A stretch of DNA of 64,000 nt from Jejuia pallidilutea. GTDB lineage: Bacteria > Bacteroidota > Bacteroidia > Flavobacteriales > Flavobacteriaceae. The position numbers were made by a program, and so were the translations under genes. Positions 17,764 to 37,521 of this stretch are shown one piece after another. The first letter of the stretch is position 1; each line of letters begins with the position of its first letter. The notes beneath the pieces were generated by a model. The model was not told where the DNA came from. It saw nothing but the letters and a program-made list of their open reading frames with translations, and ran no database searches. The stretch lies in assembly GCF_002973595.1 (NCBI RefSeq), contig NZ_PVEO01000001.1, positions 124,001-188,000 of the forward strand, read 5' to 3'.

Positions 17764-17836
17764 GGTACCTTAGCTCAGTTGGTAGAGCAAAGGACTGAAA
17801 ATCCTTGTGTCCCTGGTTCGATTCCTGGAGGTACCA
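17764..17836 (+). tRNA. tRNA-Phe (GAA)
   Basis: A 73-nt cloverleaf: acceptor GGTACCT/AGGTACC, D-stem GCTC/GAGC, anticodon stem AAGGA/TCCTT with loop CTGAAAA giving anticodon GAA, T-loop TTCGATT, discriminator A. The terminal CCA is not encoded. The T-stem arms (CCTGG and CCTGG) leave a central T-T mismatch. The 3' end is the attachment site of the island that follows, and the gene remains complete. Confidence 0.95.
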
Positions 17837-17837
17837 C
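17825..17837 (+). repeat. attL: 13-bp core within tRNA-Phe 3' end
   Basis: CTGGAGGTACCAC, identical to 37508-37520. It covers the 3' T-arm and acceptor strand of the tRNA and the following base, so insertion preserves the gene. Confidence 0.88.
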
Positions 17838-18280: not shown

Positions 18281-20668
18281 TTGAATAAGAAAGCTCTATC
18301 AGAAACCGATATATGTGCCAAGTTTATTACCCCTGCAATAAAGCAAGCAGGATGGGATGAGAATACTCAATTAAGAAGGGAAGTTTCTTTCACGGATGGG
18401 CGTATCATTGTTCAAGGTAAATTATACACTAGGGGCAAACGCAAAAGAGCAGACTATATACTTTACCATAAGCCCAGTCAGCCGATTGCTATTATTGAGG
18501 CTAAGGAAAACAATCAGCCTGTAGGGCATGGAATGCAGCAAGCGTTAGAATATGCCCAAATATTAGATATACCTTTTGTATTTACTTCTAATGGAGACAG
18601 TTTTGTTTTTCATGACAAAACGATAACCGAAGGTAAAATTGAAACAGAACTTTCATTGGATAATTTTCCTTCTCCAGAAAAATTATGGGATAAATATTTA
18701 GATTTTAAGGGATTAAAAGAGCCTAAAATTAGAACACTTGTAGAGCAAGATTATCATATTGACGAAAGAGGCATGTCTCCCAGATACTACCAACAAAATG
18801 CTATTAATAGAACTGTTGAAGCCATTGCAAAAGGGCAAACTAGATTATTATTAGTTATGGCTACAGGAACAGGCAAAACGTACACTGCTTTTAATATTAT
18901 ATGGAGGCTATGGAAGTCTCAACGCTTTCAACGTATTTTATTTCTGGCAGACCGAAATGCTTTATTGACCCAGACCAAGAATGGTGATTTTAAACCTTTT
19001 GGGAATGAAATCATGCATATCATAAAAAATCGTAAGATTGATAAATCTTATCAAATATATTTTGCACTCTACCAAGGGTTAACTGGAAATGAAGAAGTAA
19101 AGAATGTATATAAAGAATTCTCCAGAGATTTTTTCGATTTAGTATGTATAGATGAGTGCCACAGGGGAAGTGCTTCGGAAGCTTCGGCATGGCGAGAAGT
19201 GCTTGATTATTTTAGTAGTGCAACTCAAATTGGTTTAACTGCAACTCCAAAGGAAACGAAGGACGTCTCAAATATGGAATATTTTGGAGAGCCAGTTTAT
19301 ACATACTCACTAAAGCAAGGTATTGAAGATGGGTTTTTAGCTCCTTATAAGGTTGTACGCATTTCTACAACGGTTGATGAAGGTTGGAGACCAACTAGGG
19401 GTTTAGTTGATAAATATGGTAATGAGATAGAAGACCGTATCTATAACTTAAAAGATTATGACCGTACTCTTGCTATTGATGAGCGTACAGAATTGGTAGC
19501 AAAGAAAATAACCGAATATCTAAAAGGAACAGACCGATTCGCAAAAACCATAGTTTTTTGCACCGATATAGACCATGCCAATCGAATGCGTATTGCATTA
19601 ATAAATGAGAATGCTGATTTAGTCGCTAAACATCCATTATATGTTGTGAAAATTACTGGAGACGATGAAGTTGGTAAACAGGAACTTGACAACTTCACGG
19701 ATGTTGAGGAACGGTTTCCAGTTATTGCAACCACTTCAAAAATGCTCACTACAGGTATCGATACCAAAATGGTTAAATGTATTGTTTTGGAATCTAATAT
19801 AAATTCGATGACCGAGTTTAAACAAATAGTTGGTCGTGGTACACGGATTAGAGAAGATGACGGTAAAGTGTATTTTACAATCATGGACTTTAGAAAAGCA
19901 ACCAATCACTTTGCTGACCCAGATTTTGATGGAGACCCAGTCCAAATATATGAGCCAGAACCAGATGGAGATGTAATACCTCCTGATAACGAAGAAGATG
20001 ATATAGTTATTGATGGAGACGAATGGCTGCCAACTGATGATGCACCAGATTATCCAGAGGGGGATATACCAGACATTGGTATTGATAATACGGATACAGA
20101 ACCTAGAAAATATTACGTTAATAACATTAAAGTTGAAGTAGCAAATGAACGTGTTCAGTATTATGGTAAGGATGGTAAATTGATAACAGAATCATTGAAG
20201 GATTACACTAGAGACAATATAATGGCAAACTATGCTTCTTTAGATGACTTTATTATGAAATGGCGAACCTCTCCTAAGAAATCTGAATTATTAAAGGAAC
20301 TAGCCGAACAGGGTGTTTTATATGAAGCGTTAAAGGAGGAAGTTGGAAGTGATATGGATGTTTTTGACCTTATATGTCATATAGCTTTTGACCAACCGCC
20401 ATTAACCAGAAAGGAACGTGCTAATAATGTCCGTAAGCGAAACTATTTCGGTAAATATGGAGAACAAGCTAGACAGGTGATTGAAAAGCTTCTGGAGAAA
20501 TATGAGAATGAAGGGGTAATAGCCATAGAGGATAATGGAGTATTACGAGTTAAACCACTTATTGATATGGGGTCTCCAGTTGAATTAGTCCGTGCCTTTG
20601 GTAAGAAAAAAGATTTTGATAAGGCAATAGAAGAATTAGAACAAGAAATATATAACACAGGAGCTTAA
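18281..20668 (+). CDS. hsdR: Type I restriction endonuclease subunit R
   Basis: 795 residues from a TTG start. The N-terminal PD-(D/E)xK nuclease domain is visible as A-D-Y-I-L-Y (D58) with E73-A-K75. The superfamily 2 translocase follows: Walker A in ATGTGKT (about 194-200), DECHRG (motif II), GLTATP (motif III) and VGRGTR (motif VI). The C-terminal part (about 640-795) is the EcoEI-R-like region that docks on the methylase. The enzyme translocates unmethylated DNA and cuts at a distance. There is an acidic linker at about 555-610. It heads an operon with a small gene, hsdM and hsdS. Confidence 0.94.
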   Translation: MNKKALSETDICAKFITPAIKQAGWDENTQLRREVSFTDGRIIVQGKLYTRGKRKRADYILYHKPSQPIAIIEAKENNQPVGHGMQQALEYAQILDIPFVFTSNGDSFVFHDKTITEGKIETELSLDNFPSPEKLWDKYLDFKGLKEPKIRTLVEQDYHIDERGMSPRYYQQNAINRTVEAIAKGQTRLLLVMATGTGKTYTAFNIIWRLWKSQRFQRILFLADRNALLTQTKNGDFKPFGNEIMHIIKNRKIDKSYQIYFALYQGLTGNEEVKNVYKEFSRDFFDLVCIDECHRGSASEASAWREVLDYFSSATQIGLTATPKETKDVSNMEYFGEPVYTYSLKQGIEDGFLAPYKVVRISTTVDEGWRPTRGLVDKYGNEIEDRIYNLKDYDRTLAIDERTELVAKKITEYLKGTDRFAKTIVFCTDIDHANRMRIALINENADLVAKHPLYVVKITGDDEVGKQELDNFTDVEERFPVIATTSKMLTTGIDTKMVKCIVLESNINSMTEFKQIVGRGTRIREDDGKVYFTIMDFRKATNHFADPDFDGDPVQIYEPEPDGDVIPPDNEEDDIVIDGDEWLPTDDAPDYPEGDIPDIGIDNTDTEPRKYYVNNIKVEVANERVQYYGKDGKLITESLKDYTRDNIMANYASLDDFIMKWRTSPKKSELLKELAEQGVLYEALKEEVGSDMDVFDLICHIAFDQPPLTRKERANNVRKRNYFGKYGEQARQVIEKLLEKYENEGVIAIEDNGVLRVKPLIDMGSPVELVRAFGKKKDFDKAIEELEQEIYNTGA

Positions 20669-20670
20669 TT

Positions 20671-21063
20671 ATGTTTGGTGTAATATCAATTTTATTTGGA
20701 GCTGGTTTTTTTGCAGTTAACTGGAATCGAGTAACACAAAAAGAAAAGAAGGAAATTGTTGATGCTTTAGATAGAGCTTTAACCAGAACTCAATACCATA
20801 TTGACAACACAAGAACAGCAGATGGAGAAAATGTTGCTTCAACTGAATTATATGATTTATGGAATGAAGTAGCTAACAGAATAAGACCATATGACAGGCA
20901 TAATGCATATACTTTTAAAGCAAAAAGCAAATATTGGCTAACACCAAATTCATGGTATCAAGAATTAGATAATAAAGATTCTGAGCAAAGATTAAAAATC
21001 TCTTTATCAGAAGTAACAAAACAATATTGGAAGTTAAGAACAATTTGGAAGATAGATAATTAA
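20671..21063 (+). CDS. Small membrane-anchored protein inside the hsd operon, unknown function
   Basis: 130 residues, two bases after hsdR and overlapping hsdM by one base (TAATG). Residues 1-18 form a hydrophobic segment, probably one membrane anchor; the remaining 110 residues are polar, charged and likely helical, with several tryptophans. I do not recognise a family. Tight coupling on both sides argues that it is expressed with the restriction enzyme. Possible roles are an accessory or anti-toxicity factor or membrane tethering of the complex; none is shown by the sequence. Confidence 0.75.
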   Translation: MFGVISILFGAGFFAVNWNRVTQKEKKEIVDALDRALTRTQYHIDNTRTADGENVASTELYDLWNEVANRIRPYDRHNAYTFKAKSKYWLTPNSWYQELDNKDSEQRLKISLSEVTKQYWKLRTIWKIDN

Positions 21064-22478
21064 TGACACAAATAACAACAAACATAAAATCCATAAGAGA
21101 CATCATGCGTAAAGATGCAGGTGTAGATGGTGATGCCCAACGTATATCTCAAATGGTATGGATGCTTTTCTTAAAGATTTTTGCCGATAAAGAGGAAGAA
21201 TGGGGGCTTACTGTTGAAGACTACCAAAGCCCTATTCCAGAGCGTTTAAAATGGGATTCATGGGCAAGTGATGATGAAGGGTTAACAGGAGATTCCTTAA
21301 TGGAATTTATTAATAATGACCTGTTCCCAACTCTTAAGGATTTGAATGTTCAAAGTCCACAAGCTACCATCATTAGGTCTGTATTTGAGGACACCTACAA
21401 CTATATGAAAAACGGAACATTGTTCCGTCAGGTTATAAATATAATTAATAAAATAGACTTCAATAATAGTAATGACAGGCATGTTTTTAACGATTTATAT
21501 GAAACTATTTTAAAGGAACTTCAAAGTGCAGGGTCTTCTGGAGAATATTACACCCCAAGAGCTGTAACACAATTTATGGTCGATATGGTGAACCCTCAAT
21601 TGGGTGAGACTATTTTGGATATGGCAAGTGGCACAGGGGGCTTTCTTACTTGTAGTATTGAACATGTTCGTAAGCAGGTAAACACTCCGCAAGAACGAGA
21701 AGTTTTGCAAAAGTCTATTAGAGGTATTGAAAAGAAACCTTTGCCACATTTGCTATGCACTACTAATTTAATGCTCCATGGGTTTGATTTACCTGCTGTT
21801 AAAAGGGATAACCTTTTGACAATGCCATATAGTGATTGGGGTAAAAAAGACCGTGTAGATGTTATCCTAATGAATCCACCATTTGGGGGTACAGAGGAAG
21901 ATGGAACAGAAAATAACTTTCCCCAAAAGTTTAGAACGAAGGAAACGGCAGACTTGTTTTTAGCATTAATTATAAAGTTGCTGAAAGATGGTGGACGTTG
22001 TGCAGTTGTATTGCCAGATGGTACTTTGTTTGGTGAAGGGGTTAAAACCAGATTAAAAGAAGAACTATTAACCAAATGTAACCTGCATACAATTGTTAGA
22101 CTTCCTAATGGAGTATTCAATCCATATACTGGTATAAAAACTAATTTACTTTTCTTTGAAAAAGGAACACCTACTAAAGAAGTCTGGTATTTTGAACACC
22201 CTTATCCAGAAGGAAAAAATAGTTATACTAAAACCAACCCAGTAGATATTAAAGAATTTGATTTAGAAAAAAGCTGGTGGTATAATAGAGTTGAAAATGA
22301 ATACGCTTGGAAGATTTCAATTGATGATATTAGAAAAAATGGCTTTAACCTTGATTATAAGAACCCTGAAACTGGAATTGAAAATAAAAAGCTCGACACA
22401 AAAGCAATCCTTGAAAAATTAGATAATAGCATAAAGAAAGGTGGTGAAATAATGAATCTATTAAAACAAGGCTTCTAA
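21063..22478 (+). CDS. hsdM: Type I DNA methyltransferase subunit M (N6-adenine)
   Basis: 471 residues. An N-terminal helical HsdM_N domain (about 5-140) precedes the N6-MTase domain. Motif I is D-M-A-S-G-T-G-G-F (186-194, AdoMet binding) and motif IV is N-P-P-F (271-274, target adenine). The segment ELQSAGSSGEYYTPRAV before motif I is typical of HsdM. Together with HsdS it forms the modification enzyme protecting the host. It overlaps the preceding gene and hsdS by one base each (TAATG), so the operon is translationally coupled. Confidence 0.95.
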   Translation: MTQITTNIKSIRDIMRKDAGVDGDAQRISQMVWMLFLKIFADKEEEWGLTVEDYQSPIPERLKWDSWASDDEGLTGDSLMEFINNDLFPTLKDLNVQSPQATIIRSVFEDTYNYMKNGTLFRQVINIINKIDFNNSNDRHVFNDLYETILKELQSAGSSGEYYTPRAVTQFMVDMVNPQLGETILDMASGTGGFLTCSIEHVRKQVNTPQEREVLQKSIRGIEKKPLPHLLCTTNLMLHGFDLPAVKRDNLLTMPYSDWGKKDRVDVILMNPPFGGTEEDGTENNFPQKFRTKETADLFLALIIKLLKDGGRCAVVLPDGTLFGEGVKTRLKEELLTKCNLHTIVRLPNGVFNPYTGIKTNLLFFEKGTPTKEVWYFEHPYPEGKNSYTKTNPVDIKEFDLEKSWWYNRVENEYAWKISIDDIRKNGFNLDYKNPETGIENKKLDTKAILEKLDNSIKKGGEIMNLLKQGF

Positions 22479-24451
22479 TGAATTTATCATTTGCTACTAG
22501 AAAATTAAAAGGCTCTATCAAAAGAGTCAATCAGAAAGTATCTAAATTAGATGTTAATCCAGAAGACTATAATGTCTTCGGTGTCTCCAAAGCGGATGGT
22601 GTTTCGATAACAGGAAAGGATATTGGCAAAAATCTTAATACCTACTACTACTTTAAAGGTAAGAAATTTGCTTACAACCCATACCGTGTAAATATTGGTT
22701 CAATTGGACTTTCTGACGAATCCTTTGAAGGGTTAATGAGTTCTGCTTATGTAATTTTTGAAACAACTGATGAAATTAATGATGAGTTTTTGTTATTATA
22801 CCTTAAAAGTCCTTTAGGTTTAAACCTTATTAAATGGTATGGAGACAGAGGAGGAGTTCGTTCAGCTTTAAGGTTTAAGGATTTAGAAAAAATTGATTTC
22901 CCTAATTTGACTTATCAAGAACAGTCTAAAGCACTGGAGATAATCAAAAGCAAACAATCAATAGTTGATAAATTAAATATTGAATTAGAACATCAAAATG
23001 AGTTAATTATTAAACTCCGTCAAAGTATTCTGCAAGATGCAGTCCAAGGAAACTTAACGGCAAACTGGAGAGAAAAGAATCTCAATATAGAACCTGCCTC
23101 TGAATTGCTAAATCGAATAAAAAAGGAAAAAGAGCAACTTATTGCAGATAAAAAAATAAAGAAGGAAAAGCCTTTACCTCCAATTAACAAAGATGAGATT
23201 CCTTCTGAATTACCTAATGGTTGGGAGTGGTGTAAACTTGGAGATACTTTTGAAATTGTTCGAGGTTCATCTCCTCGTCCTAAAGGAGATTCTCGCTACT
23301 GGTCTAAACACAGAACACCTTTCCATTGGATAACAATAGCAGACTTCACTCCTTTTTCTAAAATGGGTTTTTTGGTTGACACAAAGGAGTTTTTGACTGA
23401 AGAGGGTAAAAATTATAGTCGAGAAGTTGGTACTCTCGATTTGCTGATTGCTTGTAGTGGTGTGGGAAGTGTTGGAAGGTCTGTGAAATTAGATATACAC
23501 GGTTTTATTTATGATGGTATAATTGCAATTCGTCAAATAAATTCAGAAATAATTAGAGATTATATTGGCTATTTTATCAAATTAAAAGAATCTGAAATTT
23601 ATTCTATTACGACTGGAGGAAGTTGGTTGAATATAAATACAGATTTGGTCAAAAATTATTTTGTTGGTTTTCCTCCATTGGAAGAACAAAAAGCTATAGT
23701 TAAAAAAGTAAATAAGCTAATGGCTCATTGCGACCAATTAGATAACCAAGTTGAGGAAAGCAGGTTTCAAGCAGAACAATTGATGCAAGCAGTCTTACAA
23801 GATGTGTTTAATCCAAAGCAGAAAGAAAATAGTGATGATTTAATAGAAGCTTTATTCCCTGAATTAGAAACTATTGCAGAAGTAGCAAACCTACAACAAG
23901 CTATGATTATTCAAAAAACAGAATTAGGATTAGGTTCTGGGCGTGGTAAAGTTTATGCTCAAAAAACATCGGCTAACCTTAAGAATATATTTGATGTAGA
24001 TATTCCGTACACCTTTGAGAAATCCCACCATGGCGAGTTTTCTTATCAACTTTCAGAGGATTTAGATAAGAACCCTTATTTAAGAAAAGTCAAAACAGAA
24101 GTCGGAGAAATTTATGAGGTAAAAAACAATAAGCAACAAGAGGTTTTAAATGCTTTAAATAAGCCTGAAAACGCATCGTTTATACAATCTGTAGACGAAC
24201 TGCTGAAAGTGTACCAAAACGACTTAATAAAGGGTTCTACAGACCGTATAGAGCTATTAAATACCGTTTGGAGAGCTATAAAAGATACCAAGTCTTTAAT
24301 AGGCAATACTGTTTACAAATATTTAGAGGAATGGGAGATTCAACAAGGTGCATATAAAACCAAGGCTGATAAGTTTACTAAGTCTGAAACTTTTGCTATG
24401 ATTACTCTAATTAAAGATTTGGGGTGGGATAAGAAAATAATTCACAGTTAA
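22478..24451 (+). CDS. hsdS: Type I specificity subunit S with an extra C-terminal domain
   Basis: 657 residues, against 400-470 for ordinary HsdS. Two target-recognition domains are seen: the first over about 1-160 and the second over about 245-420, entered by the typical SELPNGWEWCKLGD segment. Conserved helical spacers sit at about 150-215 (QSILQDAVQGNLT) and 400-450 (EEQKAIVKKVNKLMAHCDQL, LMQAVLQDVF). Residues about 465-657 form an additional basic, helix-rich domain with no motif I can name. HsdS sets the recognition sequence of both restriction and modification. Its stop overlaps the convergent DUF2971 stop by three to four bases. Confidence 0.93.
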   Translation: MNLSFATRKLKGSIKRVNQKVSKLDVNPEDYNVFGVSKADGVSITGKDIGKNLNTYYYFKGKKFAYNPYRVNIGSIGLSDESFEGLMSSAYVIFETTDEINDEFLLLYLKSPLGLNLIKWYGDRGGVRSALRFKDLEKIDFPNLTYQEQSKALEIIKSKQSIVDKLNIELEHQNELIIKLRQSILQDAVQGNLTANWREKNLNIEPASELLNRIKKEKEQLIADKKIKKEKPLPPINKDEIPSELPNGWEWCKLGDTFEIVRGSSPRPKGDSRYWSKHRTPFHWITIADFTPFSKMGFLVDTKEFLTEEGKNYSREVGTLDLLIACSGVGSVGRSVKLDIHGFIYDGIIAIRQINSEIIRDYIGYFIKLKESEIYSITTGGSWLNINTDLVKNYFVGFPPLEEQKAIVKKVNKLMAHCDQLDNQVEESRFQAEQLMQAVLQDVFNPKQKENSDDLIEALFPELETIAEVANLQQAMIIQKTELGLGSGRGKVYAQKTSANLKNIFDVDIPYTFEKSHHGEFSYQLSEDLDKNPYLRKVKTEVGEIYEVKNNKQQEVLNALNKPENASFIQSVDELLKVYQNDLIKGSTDRIELLNTVWRAIKDTKSLIGNTVYKYLEEWEIQQGAYKTKADKFTKSETFAMITLIKDLGWDKKIIHS

Positions 24452-26677: not shown

Positions 26678-26989
26678 TTGGCATCTAAACAACACCAACT
26701 TGGTTATCAGCAACGGAATGAACTTATAACTCATGTACTTTCAGGATATAAGAATGATGAAAAACTTCTAATTAAGAAAAAGGAATGGGAAGATATTGTT
26801 ATGGAACAAAGAGTAGTTCAATGGTTATATGATATGATGAGGGATAGGCTTGATGTGTATGGTTATTTTGAAAATCCAGAAGAAATAGAAACAATCCTAA
26901 AAATGTTGATTAAAAAGGCAGAGAGGATGGAAATGTTTGAAAAAGCTAATATTCTTAATCATTGGCGTTTAAAGTTGATTAAAGCATAA
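26678..26989 (+). CDS. Small helical charged protein, unknown; start uncertain
   Basis: 103 residues if started at TTG 26678. The frame stays open upstream to 26594 and would add a helical segment (INYQQQLREVFNALKEKSRA) that continues the amphipathic pattern, yet it offers no ATG, GTG or TTG, so a longer product would need a rare start such as ATA or ATT. The body is basic and acidic in alternation and probably all-helical. No family is recognised. It lies among small unknown genes and could be cytoplasmic. Confidence 0.55.
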   Translation: MASKQHQLGYQQRNELITHVLSGYKNDEKLLIKKKEWEDIVMEQRVVQWLYDMMRDRLDVYGYFENPEEIETILKMLIKKAERMEMFEKANILNHWRLKLIKA

Positions 26990-27027
26990 AATATCAGTTA
27001 ATCCATTAACTAAAATTTAATGATGAT

Positions 27028-27429
27028 TTGAAAAGGGGCATTTTATACCTGATTTTGTTTATCCTCCCATTTGTTATAGTGGTTATAGTAAATGAATCTG
27101 TTAGACCAACTATAGAAAAGGAGGGGTTTGAATTTAGAGGTGTTCAAACTATTAATCCTAAAAGTACTTCTTTGTATAAATGTTCTTGGAACTGCTACTT
27201 TGAAACTACAAAACATTGCAAAGCGTATCACACAACATTTCTAAAACCATATTTTAAACACATTGACCCAATATACTTTGGAATTATAAAGTCAATGCAT
27301 TCAGGTAATAGTTATCAGTTAATGAATGTAATATTTCTAGTGGTTCTAATACCGTTAATCATTTTCTTCCTTTTATTTCGTTCCATAGAAATGAGCTATA
27401 AGATTAAAGCTTTAAAAAAGAATGTATAA
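27028..27429 (+). CDS. Two-helix membrane protein, unknown function
   Basis: 133 residues from TTG 27028 (no in-frame ATG nearby). A membrane helix at about 5-22 and a second at about 100-120 flank a loop of about 75 residues that contains three to four cysteines (segment SLYKCSWNCYFETTKHC). The topology is like that of the protein at 25636-26070. Its stop overlaps the ATG of the next small membrane protein by one base. No family is recognised. Confidence 0.6.
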   Translation: MKRGILYLILFILPFVIVVIVNESVRPTIEKEGFEFRGVQTINPKSTSLYKCSWNCYFETTKHCKAYHTTFLKPYFKHIDPIYFGIIKSMHSGNSYQLMNVIFLVVLIPLIIFFLLFRSIEMSYKIKALKKNV

Positions 27430-27611
27430 TGGATATGGTTAATGAAATATTTGTGTACTGTACGGACTTTGTAATCAACTTAGCAAACCTATTAGGTATG
27501 TCTTACTATGAAGTAAATACTATAATATTCTGCCTCCTATACCCTTTAACCTTGTTAATTTGTCTAGTGCTTTTTTTAAGAAACTGGTATATTCTCCGAA
27601 GACTGGATTAG
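27429..27611 (+). CDS. Small membrane protein, unknown function
   Basis: 60 residues with two hydrophobic segments (about 6-22 and 28-52). Its ATG overlaps the stop of the preceding gene (TAATG), which supports real translation. No family is recognised; a partner subunit to the preceding two-helix protein is plausible. Confidence 0.5.
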   Translation: MDMVNEIFVYCTDFVINLANLLGMSYYEVNTIIFCLLYPLTLLICLVLFLRNWYILRRLD

Positions 27612-27642
27612 ACGGATAATGTAATACACGCACGTAGGGCTG

Positions 27643-27739: not shown

Positions 27740-28453
27740 TTAAAATAAGGTATTTAATTCAGGGTATTCTACTTTAGAAACTATATCAGGTCTATTACTT
27801 TCCTTATGTGAATTTATCACATCATGGCTAACAGAGTAATATTCAAAGCCTCTGGTCTTATGAGCTTGTATTTCATTTTTAAAATCTTCCTCACTATTTA
27901 ATTTAAAGAAATACTCAACATCTTGTGGTTCAAAAGCAAAGGTCATACGCTTATGAAATTGTCCGATAAAGTCATCACTGTCTGTTGTTAGCATCGAGGC
28001 TGTTAAAATACCACCTTGTTCCGTATAATATCCTAAAACACCAAATAATTCATCATTTGGTCTTCTCACCAACATTGGTATTTTATTTTTATTAGATGCT
28101 GTATAAACCTTAAACATCCCATCAATAATAAACACACATTTATTTCCCAGAATAGCATCTTTTTTCCAGTAAGGTGTTTTTGATTCAAATAGGGACTCTA
28201 TTCTGGTATTGATACAGCCACCTCCAGTTTTCTTCCAATACCCAACCATATCCTCTGAATTTGGAGGTGCAATACTCCAAGTGGCTAACTGTATTTTTTC
28301 TGGTTCTTGTTCTGTAATAACCATCATTTGAGGACGTTGAAATCCATTTACATGATAATATGTCGGTATAAAATCTGAATCAATTTTATTTACTCCAAAA
28401 TCGTTTTTTATGGTTTCCCTATTCTGTTTCTTTTGAGATGTATGATAGCACAT
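27740..28453 (-). CDS. SOS response-associated peptidase (SRAP/HMCES/YedK family)
   Basis: 237 residues. The nucleophile is Cys2 directly after the initiator methionine (M-C-Y-H). Other family features are W-S-I-A-P, the N-T-R-I-E segment, a P-x-L-V-R-R segment, and the Q-F-H-K-R-M near the C-terminal third, where the histidine is catalytic. Family members cross-link covalently to abasic sites in single-stranded DNA and so shield them from error-prone repair or breakage. It follows the LexA-like repressor by 28 bases on the same strand and is probably induced with it and with the divergent polymerases. Confidence 0.93.
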   Translation of the reverse strand: MCYHTSQKKQNRETIKNDFGVNKIDSDFIPTYYHVNGFQRPQMMVITEQEPEKIQLATWSIAPPNSEDMVGYWKKTGGGCINTRIESLFESKTPYWKKDAILGNKCVFIIDGMFKVYTASNKNKIPMLVRRPNDELFGVLGYYTEQGGILTASMLTTDSDDFIGQFHKRMTFAFEPQDVEYFFKLNSEEDFKNEIQAHKTRGFEYYSVSHDVINSHKESNRPDIVSKVEYPELNTLF

Positions 28454-28481
28454 GATTAATTGACTTTAATTAATCTTAAAT

Positions 28482-29261
28482 TTAAGCATTTTTGACCATT
28501 TTATCTAATGATTCTAATTGAACACCCAATGATTGAAACATTTGGGTAATACTGCTTAGTTTGAGTTCAGTCTCGTCATACTCTTGGGTGTTGATACAAC
28601 ATGTAAATTCCCAAAGCTCCAAAATATCACTTTTATGAACTTGATAGGCAGGATAATGCTTGTTATCTGATTGTAAAATGATATGTTCATGATCATCTTT
28701 ATCAATTTTAATTCTCTTATAAACGATTCCTTCGTCATTGGTTAGTACTATGTAGGTCTTACCGCTTTTAACATCACTAATATCTTCGACAAACCTTCCA
28801 ACAATGTATGAACCATCTTTTACAGGCAGCATAGAATCCCCTTTTATTGGGAAAGTTCGATGTTTCCCTGTTGGTAAAAAGGGGAGTTTGATTCTATCCA
28901 ATTGTTCTATGTATTCTGGGTCATCATATCCTGATAAATACCCTGCGGTAGCTTTTATGGGAACAACTTCAATAGTATCTTCATTATTATCATCAACCAT
29001 GATAGGGAATAAAACCCTATTATTAGCGATTTCAATAAAGGATACATCTTTAGTTTTTCTTAAATCAACCTTTACCAATGTGTCTATAGGAATTTTGATA
29101 TAGTTTGAAAGTTCAACCAGTTTTTCGATAGATGGTTCTGTTCTTCCAGATTCAAATGACATCACCATAGACCTAGACCATTTAAGCTCCTCAGCCATAT
29201 ATTCCTGAGTATAACCTTTTCTTTCCCTTATGTAACGTGTATTTGATGCTATAAAATTCAT
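28482..29261 (-). CDS. LexA/CI-like repressor (XRE HTH + S24 self-cleaving peptidase)
   Basis: 259 residues. A Cro/CI-type HTH is at about 6-62. The S24 peptidase is at about 100-215: cleavage bond A106-G107 in ATAGYL, catalytic S143 in K-G-D-S-M-L, and catalytic K182 in V-Y-K-R-I. A helical tail of about 35 residues follows. The protein should bind DNA as a dimer and inactivate itself when RecA filaments form on damaged DNA. A 37-bp palindrome between it and the divergent polymerase gene is the obvious operator. It resembles a phage repressor in build, but no phage genes are present. Confidence 0.92.
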   Translation of the reverse strand: MNFIASNTRYIRERKGYTQEYMAEELKWSRSMVMSFESGRTEPSIEKLVELSNYIKIPIDTLVKVDLRKTKDVSFIEIANNRVLFPIMVDDNNEDTIEVVPIKATAGYLSGYDDPEYIEQLDRIKLPFLPTGKHRTFPIKGDSMLPVKDGSYIVGRFVEDISDVKSGKTYIVLTNDEGIVYKRIKIDKDDHEHIILQSDNKHYPAYQVHKSDILELWEFTCCINTQEYDETELKLSSITQMFQSLGVQLESLDKMVKNA

Positions 29262-29264
29262 AAT

Positions 29265-29301
29265 GTTTCAAAATTAAACAATAATTGTTTAAAAATGAAA
29301 C
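29265..29301. promoter_or_regulatory. Shared palindromic operator of the repressor/SRAP and polymerase operons
   Basis: Two nested perfect arms have the same centre at 29283: GTTTCA (29265-29270) with TGAAAC (29296-29301), and AAACAAT (29276-29282) with ATTGTTT (29284-29290). It fills most of the 52-base gap between divergent start codons and overlaps or abuts both -7 boxes, so a bound repressor would silence both directions. Confidence 0.82.
29269..29276 (-). promoter_or_regulatory. -7 box of the repressor-SRAP operon
   Basis: Read on the minus strand it is TAATTTTG. It lies seven bases before the repressor ATG, so the mRNA leader must be very short or absent. It overlaps the left operator arm. 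Confidence 0.6.
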
Positions 29302-29309
29302 TAATTTTG
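29302..29309 (+). promoter_or_regulatory. -7 box of the dnaE-dinB operon
   Basis: TAATTTTG, immediately after the right operator arm and four bases before the ATG at 29314. Transcription would begin at or next to the start codon, implying a leaderless message. Confidence 0.6.
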
Positions 29310-29313
29310 TGAT

Positions 29314-32289
29314 ATGATTTTGAACTCTCACTCATATTACAGTTTAAGGTACGGAACAATAAAGCCTATAGAGCTGCTTTTTCTAGCAAATAAAGGAGGC
29401 TATAGCACTTTTGCACTAACTGATATTAATAACACATCGGCTTGCCTAGAGTTCATGAGATTAGCTCCTAAACATAGTATCAGACCATTGGTTGGTGTGG
29501 ATTTTAGAAATCGAGCTAAGCAGGAATTTGTAATGATAGCCAAAAGTAATATAGGGTTTCAGAATATCAACACCTATCTATCAAGTTTTATGCATCGAAA
29601 AAATTATGAGATACCAAATAAGGCTAATGATTTAGAGGATGTTTTTACCATTTATCCTTTTGAAAAATATTACGGCAATACTTTAAGAAAAAATGAATAT
29701 TGGGGAGTAAAGGTAAGTGATTTAAACACTATTAAGTTTTTGCGATTCCAAGGAAATAAAAGCAAGCTAGTTATTTTAAATACAGTTTCATTTATTGATA
29801 AAAAAGGATTTAACACTCATCGTCTTTTAAGGGCTATTGACAACAATACTTTACTAAGTAAACTACCTGTAAATGAAACAGGTTCAGAAGACCATAAATT
29901 CATTTCTAAGGTACAGCTCTTAAAGATTTATCAAGACTATCCTTACCTAATTGAAAACACTCAAGGGCTATTAGACTCTTGTAATATTGTTTTTGATTTT
30001 AGTGGACTGAAACCTAATAACCAAAGTTCTTATACTAATTCTCAGGCACTGGATTATAAGCTTTTAAAGAAACTAACTTATGAAGGATTAAAATATAGAT
30101 ATGAAATTGTAAATGATAAAATACTTGACCGTATAGATAAAGAGCTTAAAATCATTAAAGAGAAAGCATTTGTTTCCTACTTTTTGATTAACTGGAAAAT
30201 CCTAAAGTATGCTAGAAGCAAAGGATATTTTTATGTTGGACGAGGAAGTGGAGCAAATAGTATAGTTGCATATCTATTGCGAATTACTGATGTTGACCCA
30301 ATTGAGCTGGATTTATATTTTGAAAGGTTTATTAATCTTTATAGAACTAACCCACCAGATTTTGATTTAGATTTCAGCCATAGGGACAGGGACGATATTA
30401 CAGAATTTATATTCAAGAACTTTAAGAATACTGCCTTGATAACAGTGTACAATACATTCAAATATAAGGCATCGGTTAGGGAGTTGGGTAAGGTATTTGG
30501 GTTGCCAAAATCCGAAATAGATGTGCTTAGTTCTGGGTATTACAATTATGATAATCTTGACAAGCTTTCACAGTTGGTCATTAAATACAGTAAGTACATT
30601 GAAGGGTTTCCCAACTATTTAGGGATACATGCAGGTGGCATCATAATTTCAGAAAAACCAATTCATTATTATACAGCAACCTTTATGCCTCCAAAAGGAT
30701 TTCCTACTACTCAATTTGATATGGTAGTAGCGGAGGATATTGGACTCTATAAGTTTGATATACTGAGCCAAAGAGGACTTGGTAAAATAAAGGAAGCTGT
30801 TGAGATTGTTAGATATAACCACCCCAACAAAACGCCCATAGATATTCATGATATTAAACGGTTTAAGCAAGACACCAGAATACAATACTTATTAAAAAAT
30901 GCTAAAGCAATTGGATGTTTTTATGTGGAATCCCCTGCCATGCGTATGCTTTTAAAAAAACTTCAAGTTGATAATTATTTAGGATTGGTAGCTGCCAGTT
31001 CGGTAATAAGACCAGGGGTTTCAAAGTCTGGAATGATGCGAGAGTATATTTTAAGATATAGATACCCAAACAGAAGGAAAGAAGCCCATCCAGTTTTATT
31101 GAATATCATGCCAGATACTTATGGAGTCATGGTCTATCAGGAAGACGTGATTAAAGTAGCTCATTTCTTTGGGGGCTTGAACCTTGGAGAGGCTGACATG
31201 TTAAGACGAGGTATGTCTGGTAAGTTTAGGTCTAGGGAAGAGTTTTTAAAGGTTAAAGAGCAGTTCTTTCTGAATTGTAAAACAAGTGGTAAGGACGAAG
31301 CTCTTACAAAAGAAATCTGGAGACAAATAGAAAGCTTTGCAGGTTATGCCTTTGCCAAAGGGCATTCTGCTAGTTATGCTGTTGAAAGCTATCAAAGCCT
31401 GTTTTTAAAAGCATATTACCCTTTGGAATATATGGTCGCCACACTTAACAATGGTGGAGGGTTTTACAATAAGGAACTTTATGTTCATGAGGCAAGGATG
31501 CACGGAGCAAAGATTCAAGCTCCCTGTGTTAATAAAAGTTTTGGTCAGGCAGTCATATACAAGAAGGATATATACATAGGGTTTTTATTTTTGCAATCTT
31601 TTGAATCCAAGAACTCAAAAAGGATTGTTAAAGAACGGCTTAAAAATGGAGAGTTTCAGTCCCTTGACGACTTTATAGATAGAGTGGCTATTTCAATAGA
31701 GCAAGTTGCAATACTAATAAAAATCAATGCATTTAGGTTTACAGGAATTAATAAGCGAGAACTCTTGTGGGAAGCCTATATGAAAATCAATAATATCACA
31801 TTCGAGGAACATAAAATTACTTTGTTTAAAACAGAAAGAATCAACTATGAAACACCAGAGCTTCCTTCAACGAAATTAGAGGATGCATTTGATGAAATAG
31901 AGCTTTTGGGTTTTCCATTATGCAATCCTTTCAAACTGCTCTTAGAACCTCTTAAAATGCTTTTGAGAGCCAATAAATTACCTCTCTTTGTGAATCATAT
32001 AGTTGAAGTCATAGGATATTTGGTTACAACTAAAAGAACCAGTACTTCAAATGGTAAATTCATGTATTTTGGAACGTTTCTTGACTACTATGGAGACTTT
32101 CTGGATACCGTGCATTTTCCACCTGTAGCTTCAAAGTTTCCATTTAGGGGCAAAGGTATTTACAAGATTAAGGGAAAGGTTATGGAAGAGTTTGATTGCA
32201 TAAATATTGAAGTCATAGAAATGCATAGAATGGCTATTATAGAAGACCCCAGATATTCAGATGTTGAACCCAAAGAGAAAGCATCATGA
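29314..32289 (+). CDS. Short DNA polymerase III alpha subunit (DnaE2/ImuC-like)
   Basis: 991 residues, shorter than replicative DnaE (about 1150-1450) and near the length of error-prone DnaE2/ImuC. A PHP domain is at about 3-200. It keeps the early histidine but has T-D-I-N where active PHP domains have T-D-H-G/N, so proofreading is unlikely. The polymerase palm has D349-F-D351-L-D353 and a third acid D482 in K-F-D-I-L. Helix-hairpin-helix and an OB-like domain (about 880-965) follow; the tau-binding end is missing. It overlaps dinB by four bases. A role in damage-tolerant synthesis is inferred from length, partner genes and repressor. Confidence 0.9.
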   Translation: MILNSHSYYSLRYGTIKPIELLFLANKGGYSTFALTDINNTSACLEFMRLAPKHSIRPLVGVDFRNRAKQEFVMIAKSNIGFQNINTYLSSFMHRKNYEIPNKANDLEDVFTIYPFEKYYGNTLRKNEYWGVKVSDLNTIKFLRFQGNKSKLVILNTVSFIDKKGFNTHRLLRAIDNNTLLSKLPVNETGSEDHKFISKVQLLKIYQDYPYLIENTQGLLDSCNIVFDFSGLKPNNQSSYTNSQALDYKLLKKLTYEGLKYRYEIVNDKILDRIDKELKIIKEKAFVSYFLINWKILKYARSKGYFYVGRGSGANSIVAYLLRITDVDPIELDLYFERFINLYRTNPPDFDLDFSHRDRDDITEFIFKNFKNTALITVYNTFKYKASVRELGKVFGLPKSEIDVLSSGYYNYDNLDKLSQLVIKYSKYIEGFPNYLGIHAGGIIISEKPIHYYTATFMPPKGFPTTQFDMVVAEDIGLYKFDILSQRGLGKIKEAVEIVRYNHPNKTPIDIHDIKRFKQDTRIQYLLKNAKAIGCFYVESPAMRMLLKKLQVDNYLGLVAASSVIRPGVSKSGMMREYILRYRYPNRRKEAHPVLLNIMPDTYGVMVYQEDVIKVAHFFGGLNLGEADMLRRGMSGKFRSREEFLKVKEQFFLNCKTSGKDEALTKEIWRQIESFAGYAFAKGHSASYAVESYQSLFLKAYYPLEYMVATLNNGGGFYNKELYVHEARMHGAKIQAPCVNKSFGQAVIYKKDIYIGFLFLQSFESKNSKRIVKERLKNGEFQSLDDFIDRVAISIEQVAILIKINAFRFTGINKRELLWEAYMKINNITFEEHKITLFKTERINYETPELPSTKLEDAFDEIELLGFPLCNPFKLLLEPLKMLLRANKLPLFVNHIVEVIGYLVTTKRTSTSNGKFMYFGTFLDYYGDFLDTVHFPPVASKFPFRGKGIYKIKGKVMEEFDCINIEVIEMHRMAIIEDPRYSDVEPKEKAS

Positions 32290-33503
32290 ACCAAAACCGT
32301 GCTATAGTTCACATGGATTTGGACACATTTTTTGTTTCCTGTGAAAGGCTATTGGATAGTAAGCTAATTGGAAAACCTGTACTCATTGGAGGCACATCGG
32401 ACAGAGGGGTTGTTGCATCCTGTAGCTATGAATCAAGACGTTTTGGAATTCATTCGGCAATGCCCATGCGAATGGCGAAACAGCTTTGTCCAGAAGCTAT
32501 AGTATTAAGGGGTAATTCAGGGATATATACTAAGTTTTCTAATATGGTAACTGAGGTTATAAAAGAAAGTGTTCCTTTATATGAAAAGGCATCTGTCGAT
32601 GAGTTTTATATCGACTTGACAGGCATGGATAAATTCTTTGGTTGCCATAAATTGGCATGTGAAATTAGGCAACGAATCATAAAGGAAACTGGATTACCCA
32701 TTTCATTTGGATTGTCTATCAATAAAACCGTTTCCAAGATTGCTACAGGCGAAGCTAAACCAAACAACCAGATACAAATACTTAAAGGAACGGAAAAGCC
32801 TTTTTTATCTCCCTTATCGGTTAGAAAAATACCCATGGTTGGAGAAGTAACCTATAAATCGCTTTGTGATTTAGGGATAAAAAGGATAAAGACCATTCAG
32901 GAGATGCCCATGGAAATGATGCATAGGGTCTTGGGTAAAAATGGGCTTAGTATTTGGAAAAAAGCTAATGGCATTGACAATGCTCCAGTTGTGCAATATC
33001 ATGAAAGGAAATCCATTTCTACTGAAAGAACTTTTGATAAGGATACAACTGATGTTAGGAAACTAGAAAGCATTATTACTGCTATGGCTGAAAATTTGGT
33101 CTATCATTTAAGAAAAGGTAATAAGCTTACTTCATGTGTTACTTTTAAAATCCGTTATTCAGATTTTCAGACCTATACCATGCAAAAAAAGATTCCTTTT
33201 AGTTCCGCAGACCATAAGATTATTCCTGTCGTGATGGAGCTTTACAAGAGGCTGTATCAAAGGCGGTTGTTGGTACGTTTAATTGGTGTTAAGTTTAGTC
33301 ATCTAGTTGAAGGAGGTTATCAAATAGACGTCTTTGATGATGATGAAAAGATTATCAACCTTTACCAAGCCATGGATAAAATGAGAGAACGGTATGGAGA
33401 TAGGGCAGTCATTAGAGCTAAAGCTATGGAAGCTAGAAGTATTGGAAGGTGGAATGCGTTTAATGGAGAACCACCTCCTTTATTGGCTAATAGGAGACAA
33501 TGA
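32286..33503 (+). CDS. dinB: Y-family DNA polymerase IV (DinB-like)
   Basis: 405 residues. Catalytic residues are intact: D11 in H-M-D-L-D-T-F-F, and D105-E106 in A-S-V-D-E-F-Y-I-D. The order palm, fingers, thumb (helix-hairpin-helix near 175-240) and little finger (about 240-370) is normal. It should therefore be an active translesion polymerase, unlike ImuB proteins, which have lost the acids. I see no QLxLF-type clamp-binding motif at the C-terminus, which ends in a short proline-rich tail. The ATG overlaps the dnaE stop (ATGA), so the two polymerases are made together from one message. Confidence 0.93.
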   Translation: MNQNRAIVHMDLDTFFVSCERLLDSKLIGKPVLIGGTSDRGVVASCSYESRRFGIHSAMPMRMAKQLCPEAIVLRGNSGIYTKFSNMVTEVIKESVPLYEKASVDEFYIDLTGMDKFFGCHKLACEIRQRIIKETGLPISFGLSINKTVSKIATGEAKPNNQIQILKGTEKPFLSPLSVRKIPMVGEVTYKSLCDLGIKRIKTIQEMPMEMMHRVLGKNGLSIWKKANGIDNAPVVQYHERKSISTERTFDKDTTDVRKLESIITAMAENLVYHLRKGNKLTSCVTFKIRYSDFQTYTMQKKIPFSSADHKIIPVVMELYKRLYQRRLLVRLIGVKFSHLVEGGYQIDVFDDDEKIINLYQAMDKMRERYGDRAVIRAKAMEARSIGRWNAFNGEPPPLLANRRQ

Positions 33504-33996: not shown

Positions 33997-34083
33997 GACG
34001 ACTGTCCGCATACTAAGCCACCGTGGATTGACCCTTACTCGGTTGGCACACATTGAAGCGTTCCTGATGCTTTGAAGTTTTTT
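33997..34083 (+). ncRNA. Candidate structured RNA or replication site near the primase-like gene
   Basis: About 81 bases with roughly 52% GC, in surroundings of near 30%. A hairpin pairs GCCACCG (34017-34023) with CGGTTGGC (34040-34047, one bulged T). A second pairs AAGC (34056-34059) with GCTT (34069-34072) and is followed by T6 (34078-34083), terminator-like on the plus strand. No open frame explains it. It could be a small RNA or an origin for the neighbouring replication-type protein. Confidence 0.35.
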
Positions 34084-35284
34084 ATTGGCTCTTACTAAGA
34101 GCTTTGTAAGCAGTTTTTAAGCTTTTGGTTTTTTCATCAAATAGATGATAATATTTATTAATCGTGTTTTTACTCATATTGAGTTTCTTTGCTAATCTCA
34201 ATTGAGATATTTTACCGTCAACTTTTGAATCCCAGTCATTAATTCCTTTCTCTATTTTCTTAATGGAATTCTTGCTTTTAATCTTACCAACTACAGAACC
34301 TATCACTTTGTGCTTAGCTTTTTTTGATAGTTTAATTTCTGGATTAAAAACAATCCTTCGTTCTTTGTTCAGAATTGGCTGAATATCCTTATGATTCAAA
34401 GTTCTCTGAATGATGATTTCTACTTCTTTGTCTGGAAGTGGTATATCGCATCTACTTCTATTAATTCTATAAATAAAACCTCTAAATCTTTCTTCTGTTT
34501 GTAAAGGATTTAAAGCATAGCTCTGATAAGCAAGTAATGAAATAATATTATTCCGAGAACCCTTATAAATTCTACTTGGAATATAAAAAGATGCATATGG
34601 TAGTTTTTCATTCTCAAAAACCAAGAATGGCTGATTGTTAAATTCAATATCCCCCAAATTGTCATATCTTAAATTTACACCCAATTCGTTCACATCCTTC
34701 TCTTTCTCTATTTTGTATGAATACGTAATGGGGGTGTTTTTACCAATACCATCATTAGTCGTATTGGTATCCCATATTATAGAATTTTCATTATAGTATA
34801 GATTTGGGTCATAGCTTTGTGCATTAAATTGAGATGCTTTACCTGCATCAGTATCGGAGTAAATGTTTAATGCATTGGATATAGCCATATAAGTCGATTT
34901 AAAGTTATTTAAGCTTAGTTCATTCACTTTTACCAATATACCCATCCCAGTATTAGATAATGACCTCCATGAGGCACATATTAGCTTATTAGTTAAATTA
35001 ATTTTGGTATTATCATCTATGTCAATATAAATGTAACCAGACGGTTCTTTTATGTTTGAGTCCTTCTTGTACTTATTGTAACAAAAGTTAAGAGTGTAGC
35101 ATGGTAATTCAGTAGTTTTAATAATGTTATACTGTTCTTTACCTTTATACTGGTATATTTCTCTTGCTCTAAGGATTGCGTCCAAAACTTTCGAGTTAGG
35201 GTTGACAATACTCTCCAAAAACTCTTCTATTTCTATCACTCCCAAAACATGTGGACTTTTTACGTTTTTAAAGTGATTAAACAT
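34082..35284 (-). CDS. BT4734/BF3469-type primase-like replication protein of mobile elements
   Basis: About 400 residues from the ATG at 35284; an upstream ATG at 35308 would overlap the preceding gene by 32 bases instead of 8. The N-terminal half has the BT4734/VirE-N pattern: L-P-C-Y-T-L-N-F, then Y-I-D-I-D-D (acidic pair) and S-N-T-G-M-G-I-L-V-K. A PriCT-like helical segment follows (about 245-300: R-N-N-I-I-S-L-L-A-Y, then L-P-D-K-E-V-E-I-I-I). The C-terminus holds a likely HTH (QLRLAKKLNMSKNTINKYY). Such proteins sit beside integrases in Bacteroidetes islands and probably act in element replication; activity is not proven. Confidence 0.75.
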   Translation of the reverse strand: MFNHFKNVKSPHVLGVIEIEEFLESIVNPNSKVLDAILRAREIYQYKGKEQYNIIKTTELPCYTLNFCYNKYKKDSNIKEPSGYIYIDIDDNTKINLTNKLICASWRSLSNTGMGILVKVNELSLNNFKSTYMAISNALNIYSDTDAGKASQFNAQSYDPNLYYNENSIIWDTNTTNDGIGKNTPITYSYKIEKEKDVNELGVNLRYDNLGDIEFNNQPFLVFENEKLPYASFYIPSRIYKGSRNNIISLLAYQSYALNPLQTEERFRGFIYRINRSRCDIPLPDKEVEIIIQRTLNHKDIQPILNKERRIVFNPEIKLSKKAKHKVIGSVVGKIKSKNSIKKIEKGINDWDSKVDGKISQLRLAKKLNMSKNTINKYYHLFDEKTKSLKTAYKALSKSQ

Positions 35285-35567
35285 AACAACCTCCTTCCAT
35301 TGCATCATCTATATCCTTTCTTTTGTAATACACTCTGCTACCTATTTTTGTAGCTCGTAAAACACCGTCTTTGTTATACTTCCATAATGTGGCATAAGAA
35401 ATTTTAAGAAGGTCTTTAGCCTCTTCTCTAGTGTAATAGTCCTTACCATCTTTTACTTTGTTTTGGACAATAGATTCCTTCATCTCTATAATAGATAAAA
35501 TCTCTTTTCTAAATACTTCAAAAAACTCCTCTGTAGTCATTTGAAAAATATGTTTCTTATTACTCAT
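35277..35567 (-). CDS. Excisionase-type HTH protein
   Basis: 96 residues. The C-terminal half is a MerR/excisionase-like helix-turn-helix (HTH_17): Y-T-R-E-E-A-K-D-L-L-x-I-S-x-A-T-L-W-K-Y, then G-V-L-R-A-T-K-I-G-S-R-V-Y-Y-K-R-x-D-I. The N-terminal half is helical and charged. Such proteins bind arm sites and direct integrases toward excision, or act as regulators. It is coupled to the downstream primase-like gene and lies next to the repeat-rich region and the integrase. Confidence 0.85.
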   Translation of the reverse strand: MSNKKHIFQMTTEEFFEVFRKEILSIIEMKESIVQNKVKDGKDYYTREEAKDLLKISYATLWKYNKDGVLRATKIGSRVYYKRKDIDDAMEGGCYV

Positions 35568-36000: not shown

Positions 36001-37341
36001 TTATACAGGAATAGATGAAACCTGAAAAGCATCTGTTGACGTTATTTGCGAAACACGTTCTACTTTAGGGTTACGAATATATTTCATGAACTCCTTCAGT
36101 GTAGAATGCCCAGACAGCTCTAGAATTGAATGTACTGGTACACCAGCTTTATATTTCAATGTACAGAAGGTTCGGCGTGCCGAATGCCCTTGTATTAATT
36201 GATATTTAGGTATATGGTTAACTTTACGCTTCCCTCCTCTAGTAATTTCAACCTTAATCTGTGAATTAATTTCAGCTTTTTCACCAACTATCTTGATATA
36301 ATCATTGAGCTTTTGTTCTGTGATTTTTGGAGGCAAATTACCTCCATACCTTTGATTCATAATAGCCTCAATTACAGGTGTAATTTTACACAGCACTTCT
36401 TTTTTGGTTTTTTCTTGCTTAATCTTAATGTACCTCTCATTTTCATGAGGTACAATTTCATGTGCTTGCAGATTATGATAATCACTGATACGTTGACCAA
36501 TCTCGCACCCAATAAGAAATATATCTCTAGCTAACTCTAAATGAGGTGTAGCTCTCAAATCTAATTCATACATACTTTTTAACTCCACTATTTCTAAATA
36601 AATAGCGGTTGTTATTTCTGTCTTTACCTTAAATCTTTTATATTTTAAGTTGGAATGGTAATCTTCCACCAAAGCTGCTCCCATAAAAACTTTCAGATTC
36701 TTGATTTGTTTCCCAATAGTGTTGAGCGAATAATGCTTTACCTCCTTTTTATTAAACTGATAGGTCTTAGCATTCATATACTCAGTAAAGTCAGAATAGA
36801 ACTCATTATCTAAATCAAAATCCAAAATACATTTATTCTCTCTCTCATAACCTCTCAAATGCTCTAAAGTCTGCTCATAGGACTTTATTGTATTATTCTT
36901 ATATCCGTTAGATGCCTTTGGCAGTTCTTTCTCCTTTTGAATAATATAATTTTTCACAAAGGCAATCAATGTTGTTATTTCTTTCTCTTCATTATCTAAA
37001 ACAGCCTCATTTTCATTTCTAAAATCATCCAAACAAGCTTTTATTATGGGATTTGTTAGAGGAATTTGGTTAGAATCACAATCTTCAACAAACTCTTTAA
37101 GTTTTCGAGTTAAATCATCAATTCTATCATTTATCATTTTTGCATTAGTAACAGCACGTACATTTTTAACCTTACCTTTATCTCCAATCCAATAATCTGG
37201 ATTGACTGAATAACCGATAGAATACTTAAAACGCTTCTTTCTCCCATATGAATAATCAAGGAATATTGGTTTCTCTGGTTTGGTGGATGCTTTAAGTCTA
37301 AATACTGGTGCAGCTCCTTTTGTTCGTCTGGATTGAATCAT
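36001..37341 (-). CDS. int: Tyrosine-family site-specific integrase
   Basis: 446 residues. The N-terminus is an arm-binding-like domain (about 15-60), followed by a SAM-like core-binding domain (about 120-230). The catalytic domain shows R284 (I-G-Q-R-I-S-D), H386-x-x-R389 (G-H-S-A-R-R), H412 (L-S-G-H-S-T) and the nucleophile Y421 (F-M-K-Y-I). All residues needed for strand exchange are present, so it should be active. It lies 167 bases inside the right attachment site and is transcribed inward, as expected for a tRNA-targeting island. Confidence 0.95.
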   Translation of the reverse strand: MIQSRRTKGAAPVFRLKASTKPEKPIFLDYSYGRKKRFKYSIGYSVNPDYWIGDKGKVKNVRAVTNAKMINDRIDDLTRKLKEFVEDCDSNQIPLTNPIIKACLDDFRNENEAVLDNEEKEITTLIAFVKNYIIQKEKELPKASNGYKNNTIKSYEQTLEHLRGYERENKCILDFDLDNEFYSDFTEYMNAKTYQFNKKEVKHYSLNTIGKQIKNLKVFMGAALVEDYHSNLKYKRFKVKTEITTAIYLEIVELKSMYELDLRATPHLELARDIFLIGCEIGQRISDYHNLQAHEIVPHENERYIKIKQEKTKKEVLCKITPVIEAIMNQRYGGNLPPKITEQKLNDYIKIVGEKAEINSQIKVEITRGGKRKVNHIPKYQLIQGHSARRTFCTLKYKAGVPVHSILELSGHSTLKEFMKYIRNPKVERVSQITSTDAFQVSSIPV

Positions 37342-37371
37342 AGATGAAATCTTTCTACAAAGATAATTAAA

Positions 37372-37500: not shown

Positions 37501-37521
37501 TGTGGTACTGGAGGTACCACA
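37501..37521. repeat. attR: 13-bp core inside a hairpin
   Basis: CTGGAGGTACCAC at 37508-37520 duplicates the tRNA-Phe 3' end. On the element side it completes an 8-bp-arm inverted repeat, TGTGGTAC (37501-37508) with GTACCACA (37514-37521), around TGGAG. Right of it the chromosome resumes with the tRNA's own terminator. Confidence 0.88.

Follow-up and report, generated by a model that had tools for sequence, protein, structure and literature searches.

Error-prone polymerases set the pace of bacterial adaptation under stress. For Bacteroidetes, a module of a C-family and a Y-family polymerase, DnaE2B-PolY(-RecA), has been predicted (PMC6511836, PMC12926913). Related PolY/DnaE2/ImuB-C operons often contain lexA (PMC6511836), and in the available text of both reports, SRAP is tied only to UmuC-like polymerases (PMC6511836, PMC12926913). 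SRAP beside DinB, LexA and sometimes a DnaE paralog was reported in 2013 (PMC3765255). Another relative is the imuA-imuB-dnaE2 mutasome, for which the transferred imuABC genes on symbiosis plasmids provide a mutagenesis cassette with a shown post-transfer effect (PMC4151985). Here, we study a 64,000-nt stretch of the Jejuia pallidilutea genome (in the following, the window), in which four intact open reading frames at 27740-33503 form two divergent operons: an SRAP-family protein and an S24 repressor on the reverse strand, a DnaE2-like polymerase and a DinB polymerase on the forward strand. A first-pass annotation of the window had described them as a mobile, privately regulated translesion-synthesis unit. 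Its account of four genes in two divergent operons agrees with the reading frames, and the domains are matched in Pfam (Table 1).

Judging from sequence comparisons, the four genes quite probably form an island-carried, self-regulated translesion-synthesis cassette of the DnaE2B-PolY(-RecA) kind. The S24 repressor would bind two operators (O1, O2) that overlap or abut both divergent promoters, and this one pair, common to both sides, would let it repress its own gene, that of SRAP and the dnaE2-dinB operon. RecA filaments on damaged DNA would trigger repressor self-cleavage at Ala106-Gly107, i.e., the cassette would turn on. DinB, docked to RecA via a C-terminal motif resembling the RecA N-terminus, and DnaE2B would then bypass lesions jointly, either within a mutasome or one after the other, and the cassette would spread horizontally on tRNA-targeting integrative islands. 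Within this model, we infer operator binding, RecA-triggered cleavage, joint polymerase action and the effect on survival or mutation. Since the cassette brings its own operator class, it would be independent of host regulators. If so, a travelling cassette with its own damage switch would let an island alter the damage tolerance or mutation rate of each new host at once, independently of the host's SOS wiring.

The polymerase pair itself is of a known module type. New are the genus-crossing island unit with its own switch sequence and the SRAP protein with a lysine at a catalytic position. No report of an island-borne DnaE2-DinB-SRAP cassette in Bacteroidetes was found among the titles and abstract starts listed in searches of open-access literature.

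The polymerase pair

Aligned to E. coli Pol III alpha (stretches 3-98 and 152-791), the DnaE protein keeps the catalytic motifs PDFDLDF (from 348) and KFD (from 480), and its domain order is PHP, palm, fingers, HhH. As no Pfam match is found beyond HHH_6, there is no recognised OB or tau-binding C-terminus. The DnaE stop (32289) and the DinB start (32286) overlap by 4 bases. DinB has all three catalytic residues (D11, D105, E106), such that the Y polymerase differs from ImuB just as the first-pass annotation had stated. In total, a DinB query identifies three Y polymerases in the genome, i.e., two besides that of the cassette.

Judged by the Pfam RecA model, used without models of ImuA or ImuB, the genome holds no second RecA-family gene and thus no recognisable ImuA. 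Both observations, i.e., the intact catalytic residues and the missing second RecA-family gene, led us to reject membership in the ImuA-ImuB-DnaE2 group, with which the cassette has DnaE2 and a Y-family protein in common, and from which it differs by an intact Y polymerase and by the lack of a recognised imuA or imuB. The combination of a missing imuA and an active Y polymerase had been presented as a peculiarity of the locus. It is normal for the Bacteroidetes module (PMC12926913). Similarly, the proposed alternative mutasome, in which both polymerases are active, matches what has been predicted for Bacteroidetes and is thus of the right kind, though not new (PMC6511836, PMC12926913).

Compared to the DnaE2B-PolY-RecA module (Cellulophaga algicola type), the cassette shares the adjacent DnaE2 and apparently active Y polymerase, the motif resembling the RecA N-terminus, and the lack of a detected ImuA. 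Unlike that module, it sits on a tRNA island with its own repressor and SRAP gene. No discussion of the module's mobility was found in the available parts of PMC6511836 and PMC12926913. The RecA-like motif (DinB residues 356-381) aligns to the N-terminus of the host RecA with a score of 24. Taken alone it is weak, since 67/2000 shuffles score equally high, which counts against our reading. The motif gains weight from the relatives, as the best RecA-like match has the same C-terminal place in 127/132 of their DinBs.

The repressor and its putative operator pair

Within the repressor, we read Ala106-Gly107, Ser143 (GDSM) and Lys182 (VYK), which we take to be the LexA-type cleavage position and the Ser-Lys dyad, respectively. 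The residues behind the annotated LexA-like repressor with intact cleavage site and dyad are therefore present. Its DNA-binding domain is HTH_3 and not the winged helix of canonical LexA, and the recognition-helix region (residues 28-43) reads WSRSMVMSFESGRTEP.

The 52 bp between the divergent starts contain two 15-bp GTTT-N7-AAAC palindromes, 22 bp apart, which are O1 (GTTTCAAAATTAAAC) and O2 (GTTTAAAAATGAAAC). The value of the pair in a score that combines palindromy and similarity is reached by 0/100 shuffles. The region is identical in 51/52 bases between the window and G740, a genome of another genus, while 267/567 (47%) of the fourfold sites of the four genes differ. Given this four-gene rate, the chance of such an identity is about 2e-13; it is about 2e-7 for the lower rate of the repressor gene alone (24/80 fourfold sites). 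Exact operator matches in the window are limited to O1 and O2. Sites with at most two mismatches, on the other hand, are not enriched (19 found vs. 17.65 expected), which weakens the operator assignment at the level of single sites. The case for the operators thus rests on exact pairing and conservation.

Next to the operators lies TAATTTTG in both orientations, which we take to be a -7-like promoter element (presumably the Bacteroidetes -7 element, TAnnTTTG). The two elements stop 4 and 7 bases ahead of the two start codons (29259-29316), and being that close, both divergent transcripts may be leaderless. The SRAP gene follows the repressor gene after a gap of 28 bases and is probably co-transcribed with it.

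The closest described regulators are non-canonical LexA proteins (COG2932), which likewise combine a helix-turn-helix (HTH) with an S24 domain, control dinB-dnaE operons and use a palindromic, spaced operator (PMC8565304). The Elizabethkingia anophelis relative is the closest experimental precedent: it binds a palindrome in its own promoter, and mitomycin C induces both this regulator and the divergently oriented gene of an error-prone polymerase (PMC8565304). The operators described for this regulator group are GGA-N5-TCC and CTAA-N5-TTAG (PMC8565304), in contrast to the 22-bp-spaced pair of the cassette. Reading the 52-bp region by eye, neither motif was seen and GTTT-N7-AAAC occurs twice instead. 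Further differences are the link of the cassette operator to recognition-helix residues and its location on an island.

We compared operator and recognition helix among relatives, for which operator pairs were read from the fixed layout. For these tallies 85 regions were kept, leaving out upstream regions with identical first 80 bases. The site pair of relatives shows the same spacing and a gapless alignment within the pair, but reads GCTAC/GTAGC. That is, the second base of the half-site G-x-T varies, and we compared it with the residue before the conserved Gly of the helix. Among 53 non-duplicate repressors of at least 56% identity, all five with Ser-38 (window, G740, G595, G697, G730) have a T-class operator. 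The 47 Glu-type repressors show C in 44 cases, T alone in 1 and no site in 2, and the single Gln-type repressor has a G-class operator. For the distant Asp-type repressors, A is found in 3/13, T in 1/13 and nothing in 9/13. Operator divergence within this repressor family has been shown before in Weeksellaceae (PMC8565304), such that the co-variation extends a known trend.

A number of observations count against a strict correspondence. The Asp-type case L094 shows T rather than A, and a sixth Ser-type repressor (L089, same order, family f5) is without a site of the pattern. Of all 54 non-duplicate Glu-type regions, 45 have a C site, two of them with an additional A or T site; a single region shows only T, and 8 lack any site. 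Furthermore, 19 rows of at least 56% identity miss the layout threshold or do not show the pair, and the palindrome-pair score beats all shuffles only in the window and a few of 31 relatives. In the repressor tree (7 loci left out as duplicates), the Ser-type repressors form one group (support 77/98, 75% of bootstrap trees), and the co-variation may thus go back to one or two events. In the DnaE tree, the polymerases that accompany them are split over two places; this suggests that repressor and operator are exchangeable against the polymerases, or that there were two origins.

A more far-reaching reading takes these data as a helix/operator code, in which the helix residue that precedes the conserved Gly goes with the second half-site base (C for Glu, T for Ser, G for Gln and mostly A for Asp). 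In Flavobacteriaceae, mobile translesion cassettes would thereby carry insulated SOS circuits, several of which could coexist per cell without cross-talk, and the SRAP of this lineage would use a different, possibly lysine-based, abasic-site chemistry. We regard this reading as conceivable but doubtful. In any case, close relatives keep one operator layout, with two 15-bp sites at a distance of 22 bp, and vary in half-site letters and helix residues, which makes them a natural series for testing how changes in repressor and operator go together.

Does the repressor act beyond the cassette? The window belongs to a 4.11-Mb genome, in which no other DnaE2 and no other SRAP was found and which encodes a single further S24 protein, resembling UmuD in size and domain. 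No operator-like site was found in the 300 bases upstream of the host's recA, umuD, umuC-like and dinB genes. Beyond O1 and O2, the genome has two exact operator matches; one (L267) is inside an open frame, and the other (L266) is where an open frame ends, some 0.2 kb ahead of the following one. None of the 78 one-mismatch sites is upstream of the recA, umuD, umuC-like or dinB starts. Given the placing of exact and one-mismatch sites, we rejected a regulation of other host genes by the island repressor. Together with an operator class that co-varies with the recognition helix, the lack of sites upstream of recA, umuD, umuC-like and dinB gives computational support to the annotated private regulation.

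Relatives and horizontal transfer

Full-length relatives of the DnaE protein (45-74% identical) are frequent among 395 genomes from the order. At a distance of up to 6 kb from DnaE2 we find DinB in 132/140 loci, an S24 repressor in 60/140, SRAP in 29/140 and all four genes in 21/140, where the 140 loci include some genomes twice (e.g., L055/L161, L057/L168, L046/L147). Linkage is thus far above chance, with the polymerase pair as the core. Gene order varies, i.e., SRAP can take the first or the last place or separate the polymerases.

G740 has all four genes in identical order, with proteins 91-95% and DNA 85% identical. Here, the block lies between 24-base direct repeats, one of which is at the end of a tRNA-Leu. 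The integrase of G740 is 26% identical to that of the window, and outside the block, only one neighbour and the integrase among the window genes are matched in 40 kb of G740. Given the different integrases and surroundings, we interpret this as one block in two islands of two genera. The first-pass annotation had proposed linkage in related islands as a test of the unit, and its outcome is favourable, since the single island found to be closely related has all four genes linked. The matched neighbour (27028-27429; window 26979-27627) has 68% protein identity and is located about 8 kb from the cassette in G740.

In the window, the island occupies a tRNA-Phe. A 13-base att core (CTGGAGGTACCAC) is repeated at both ends of the 19.7-kb island. 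In 5/11 tRNA-Phe loci of congeners (L218, L221, L222, L224, L227) the site is empty, that is, tRNA-Phe is directly followed by the sequence found after the window's second core. Empty sites in congeners, and the recurrence of the block in another type of island in another genus, bear out the annotated mobile, integrative island. Within the genus, a full-length DnaE relative occurs in 5/12 genomes (own included); the other four are 59-72% identical and not at tRNA-Phe. The DnaE tree groups window, G740 and G595 with full support, with G397/G398 and G396/G400 in two other places. Copies also exist on plasmids: the Emticicia plasmid pEMTOL01 (typed as conjugative by PLSDB) carries SRAP, repressor, DinB and DnaE, and an Adhaeribacter and a Chryseobacterium plasmid hold three of the four cassette genes each.

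Three findings count against our reading. The exact gene order of the window is present in 0/140 loci and was found only in G740. Among the remaining tRNA-Phe loci of congeners, the downstream sequence is displaced by about 1.3 kb in L223 (G400) and has no match in five. Finally, no integrase related to three reference integrases was found in the flanks of 139/140 related loci (8-10 kb read where contigs allow). Mobility therefore applies to this lineage and the plasmid copies, not to the module in general.

The cassette might also serve the island itself: a phage-like switch would respond to damage as an exit signal, and the polymerases would copy or repair island DNA at excision or transfer. 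The CI-like S24 type of the repressor, the integrase and excisionase-like genes of the island and the plasmid copies fit this picture, as does a two-mismatch operator site at 35571-35585, which precedes the excisionase-like gene's start by 4 bases and is a point against purely private regulation. However, the outer G and C are missing from that site, which belongs to the non-enriched class (19 vs. 17.65), and O1 and O2 are the only exact matches within the window. Moreover, a related integrase is lacking near almost all of the module's relatives, and what surrounds the block largely differs between the two islands. We thus judge a service to the island unlikely.

A phage origin was rejected, as the best 15 of 933 records of a tblastn search with DnaE in a phage collection reach at most 29.2% identity; viral contigs, scanned with the repressor and DinB as queries, yielded no relative either.

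Regarding the repressors of relatives, LexA homologues have been reported as lacking in Bacteroidetes (PMC8565304). In the congener G396, a protein of canonical LexA architecture (L216:12975-13574; LexA_DNA_bind 1.7e-12, Peptidase_S24 1.6e-21) lies beside the DinB-DnaE2 pair, and close relatives of this protein in Algibacter (L171:8066-8665) and Seonamhaeicola (L174:8053-8652) are at most 0.8 kb from the polymerases. Hence, the repressors combined with the polymerase pair are of at least two types. In G398, the gene product next to the repressor, considered as an SRAP candidate, is an outer-membrane barrel protein.

The SRAP protein and further island features

The SRAP protein is matched over its full length (PF02586, 1-213 of 214), and Cys2, Asn82 and His167 are present. 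Match, Cys2 and Asn are shared with the described SRAP/YedK-HMCES proteins (PMC3765255, PMC9436759). In contrast to these, Lys115 takes the place of the catalytic Glu, which is numbered Glu105 in YedK (PMC9436759), and the loop after the active-site His is 3 residues shorter than in the nearest canonical homologues (this alignment took half of the 30 SRAP loci, one strand read). At the Lys115 place, the other 32 SRAP rows of the alignment have Glu in 31 and Asp in 1 case. In a search of 397 genomes of the family, Glu is found in 28 of the best 30 SRAP loci (all aligned), and Lys only in the window and G740. The first-pass annotation had proposed SRAP as an abasic-site-binding shield. The family match stands, whereas the change from Glu to Lys at the catalytic place makes the shield role doubtful (PMC9436759). 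With this change, the protein also offers a clear way to test if SRAP is kept in such operons for its covalent abasic-site chemistry.

All four cassette genes are under strong purifying selection. Between window and G740, the ratio of nonsynonymous to synonymous substitution rates (dN/dS, NG86 method) is 0.017 for SRAP, 0.05 for the S24 repressor, 0.046 for DnaE and 0.024 for DinB, where dS of 0.58-1.71 is near saturation and the ratios are thus rough. With such constraint on a gene that has Lys in place, SRAP is more likely a changed than a dead protein. This bears on whether the cassette is an ordinary chromosomal SOS module, caught in the island by chance, decaying and without a function tied to mobility. 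The module is common in the order and the catalytic Glu of SRAP is lost, but selection on all four genes, the near-perfect conservation of the operator region between genera and the conservation of Lys115 itself all argue otherwise, and we hold this explanation to be very improbable.

The features of cassette and island are summarized in Table 1.

Table 1. Cassette and island features with their coordinates in the window.
Feature	Position	Strand	Evidence or remark
tRNA-Phe, island insertion site	17764..17837	+	att core CTGGAGGTACCAC at 17825-17837
Type I restriction-modification operon (R, 130-aa open reading frame, M, S)	18281..24451	+	on the same island
SRAP-family protein, 237 aa	27740..28453	-	Pfam PF02586 5e-21; alignments
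CI/LexA-like repressor, 259 aa	28482..29261	-	HTH_3 1e-11 and Peptidase_S24 1.5e-8; relatives
Divergent promoter/operator region, 52 bp	29262..29313		conservation vs. G740 copy
Putative operator O1	29265..29279		overlaps TAATTTTG element at 29269-29276 (-)
Putative operator O2	29287..29301		abuts TAATTTTG element at 29302-29309 (+)
DnaE2B-type C-family polymerase, 991 aa	29314..32289	+	Pfam: PHP, DNA_pol3_alpha, finger, HHH_6
DinB/PolY-type Y polymerase, 405 aa	32286..33503	+	Pfam IMS 2e-44, IMS_C 2e-26
Weak BT4734-like N-terminal match	34082..35308	-	just below Pfam cut-off
Excisionase-like HTH_17 protein	35277..35567	-	Pfam; excise model below cut-off
Tyrosine integrase of the island	36001..37341	-	Pfam
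Second att core CTGGAGGTACCAC	37508..37520	+	beside integrase gene; 19,683 bp core to core

Directly after the type I operon, PADLOC reports a candidate defence family, PDC-S31 (24448-25251, 2e-95). With two defence-like elements on the same island, and a Schlafen group 3 helicase-type protein adjoining the cassette in the island of G740, the cassette could be part of an anti-phage defence island, i.e., provide SOS-triggered repair or bypass of breaks from type I restriction or phages. Yet no PADLOC model matches SRAP or the polymerases, the repressor is matched in its HTH part only, and each of the two islands has defence-like neighbours of its own, which is what unlinked cargo would show. 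A defence role is hence very improbable, and we retain the self-regulated translesion-synthesis cassette as the preferred reading.

The window has GGGACAACATT repeats at 17891-17919 and 37367-37395. Two congener loci, L219 (G398) and L225 (G403), hold other DNA at tRNA-Phe with near-copies of these repeats, such that the site probably serves a family of related islands.

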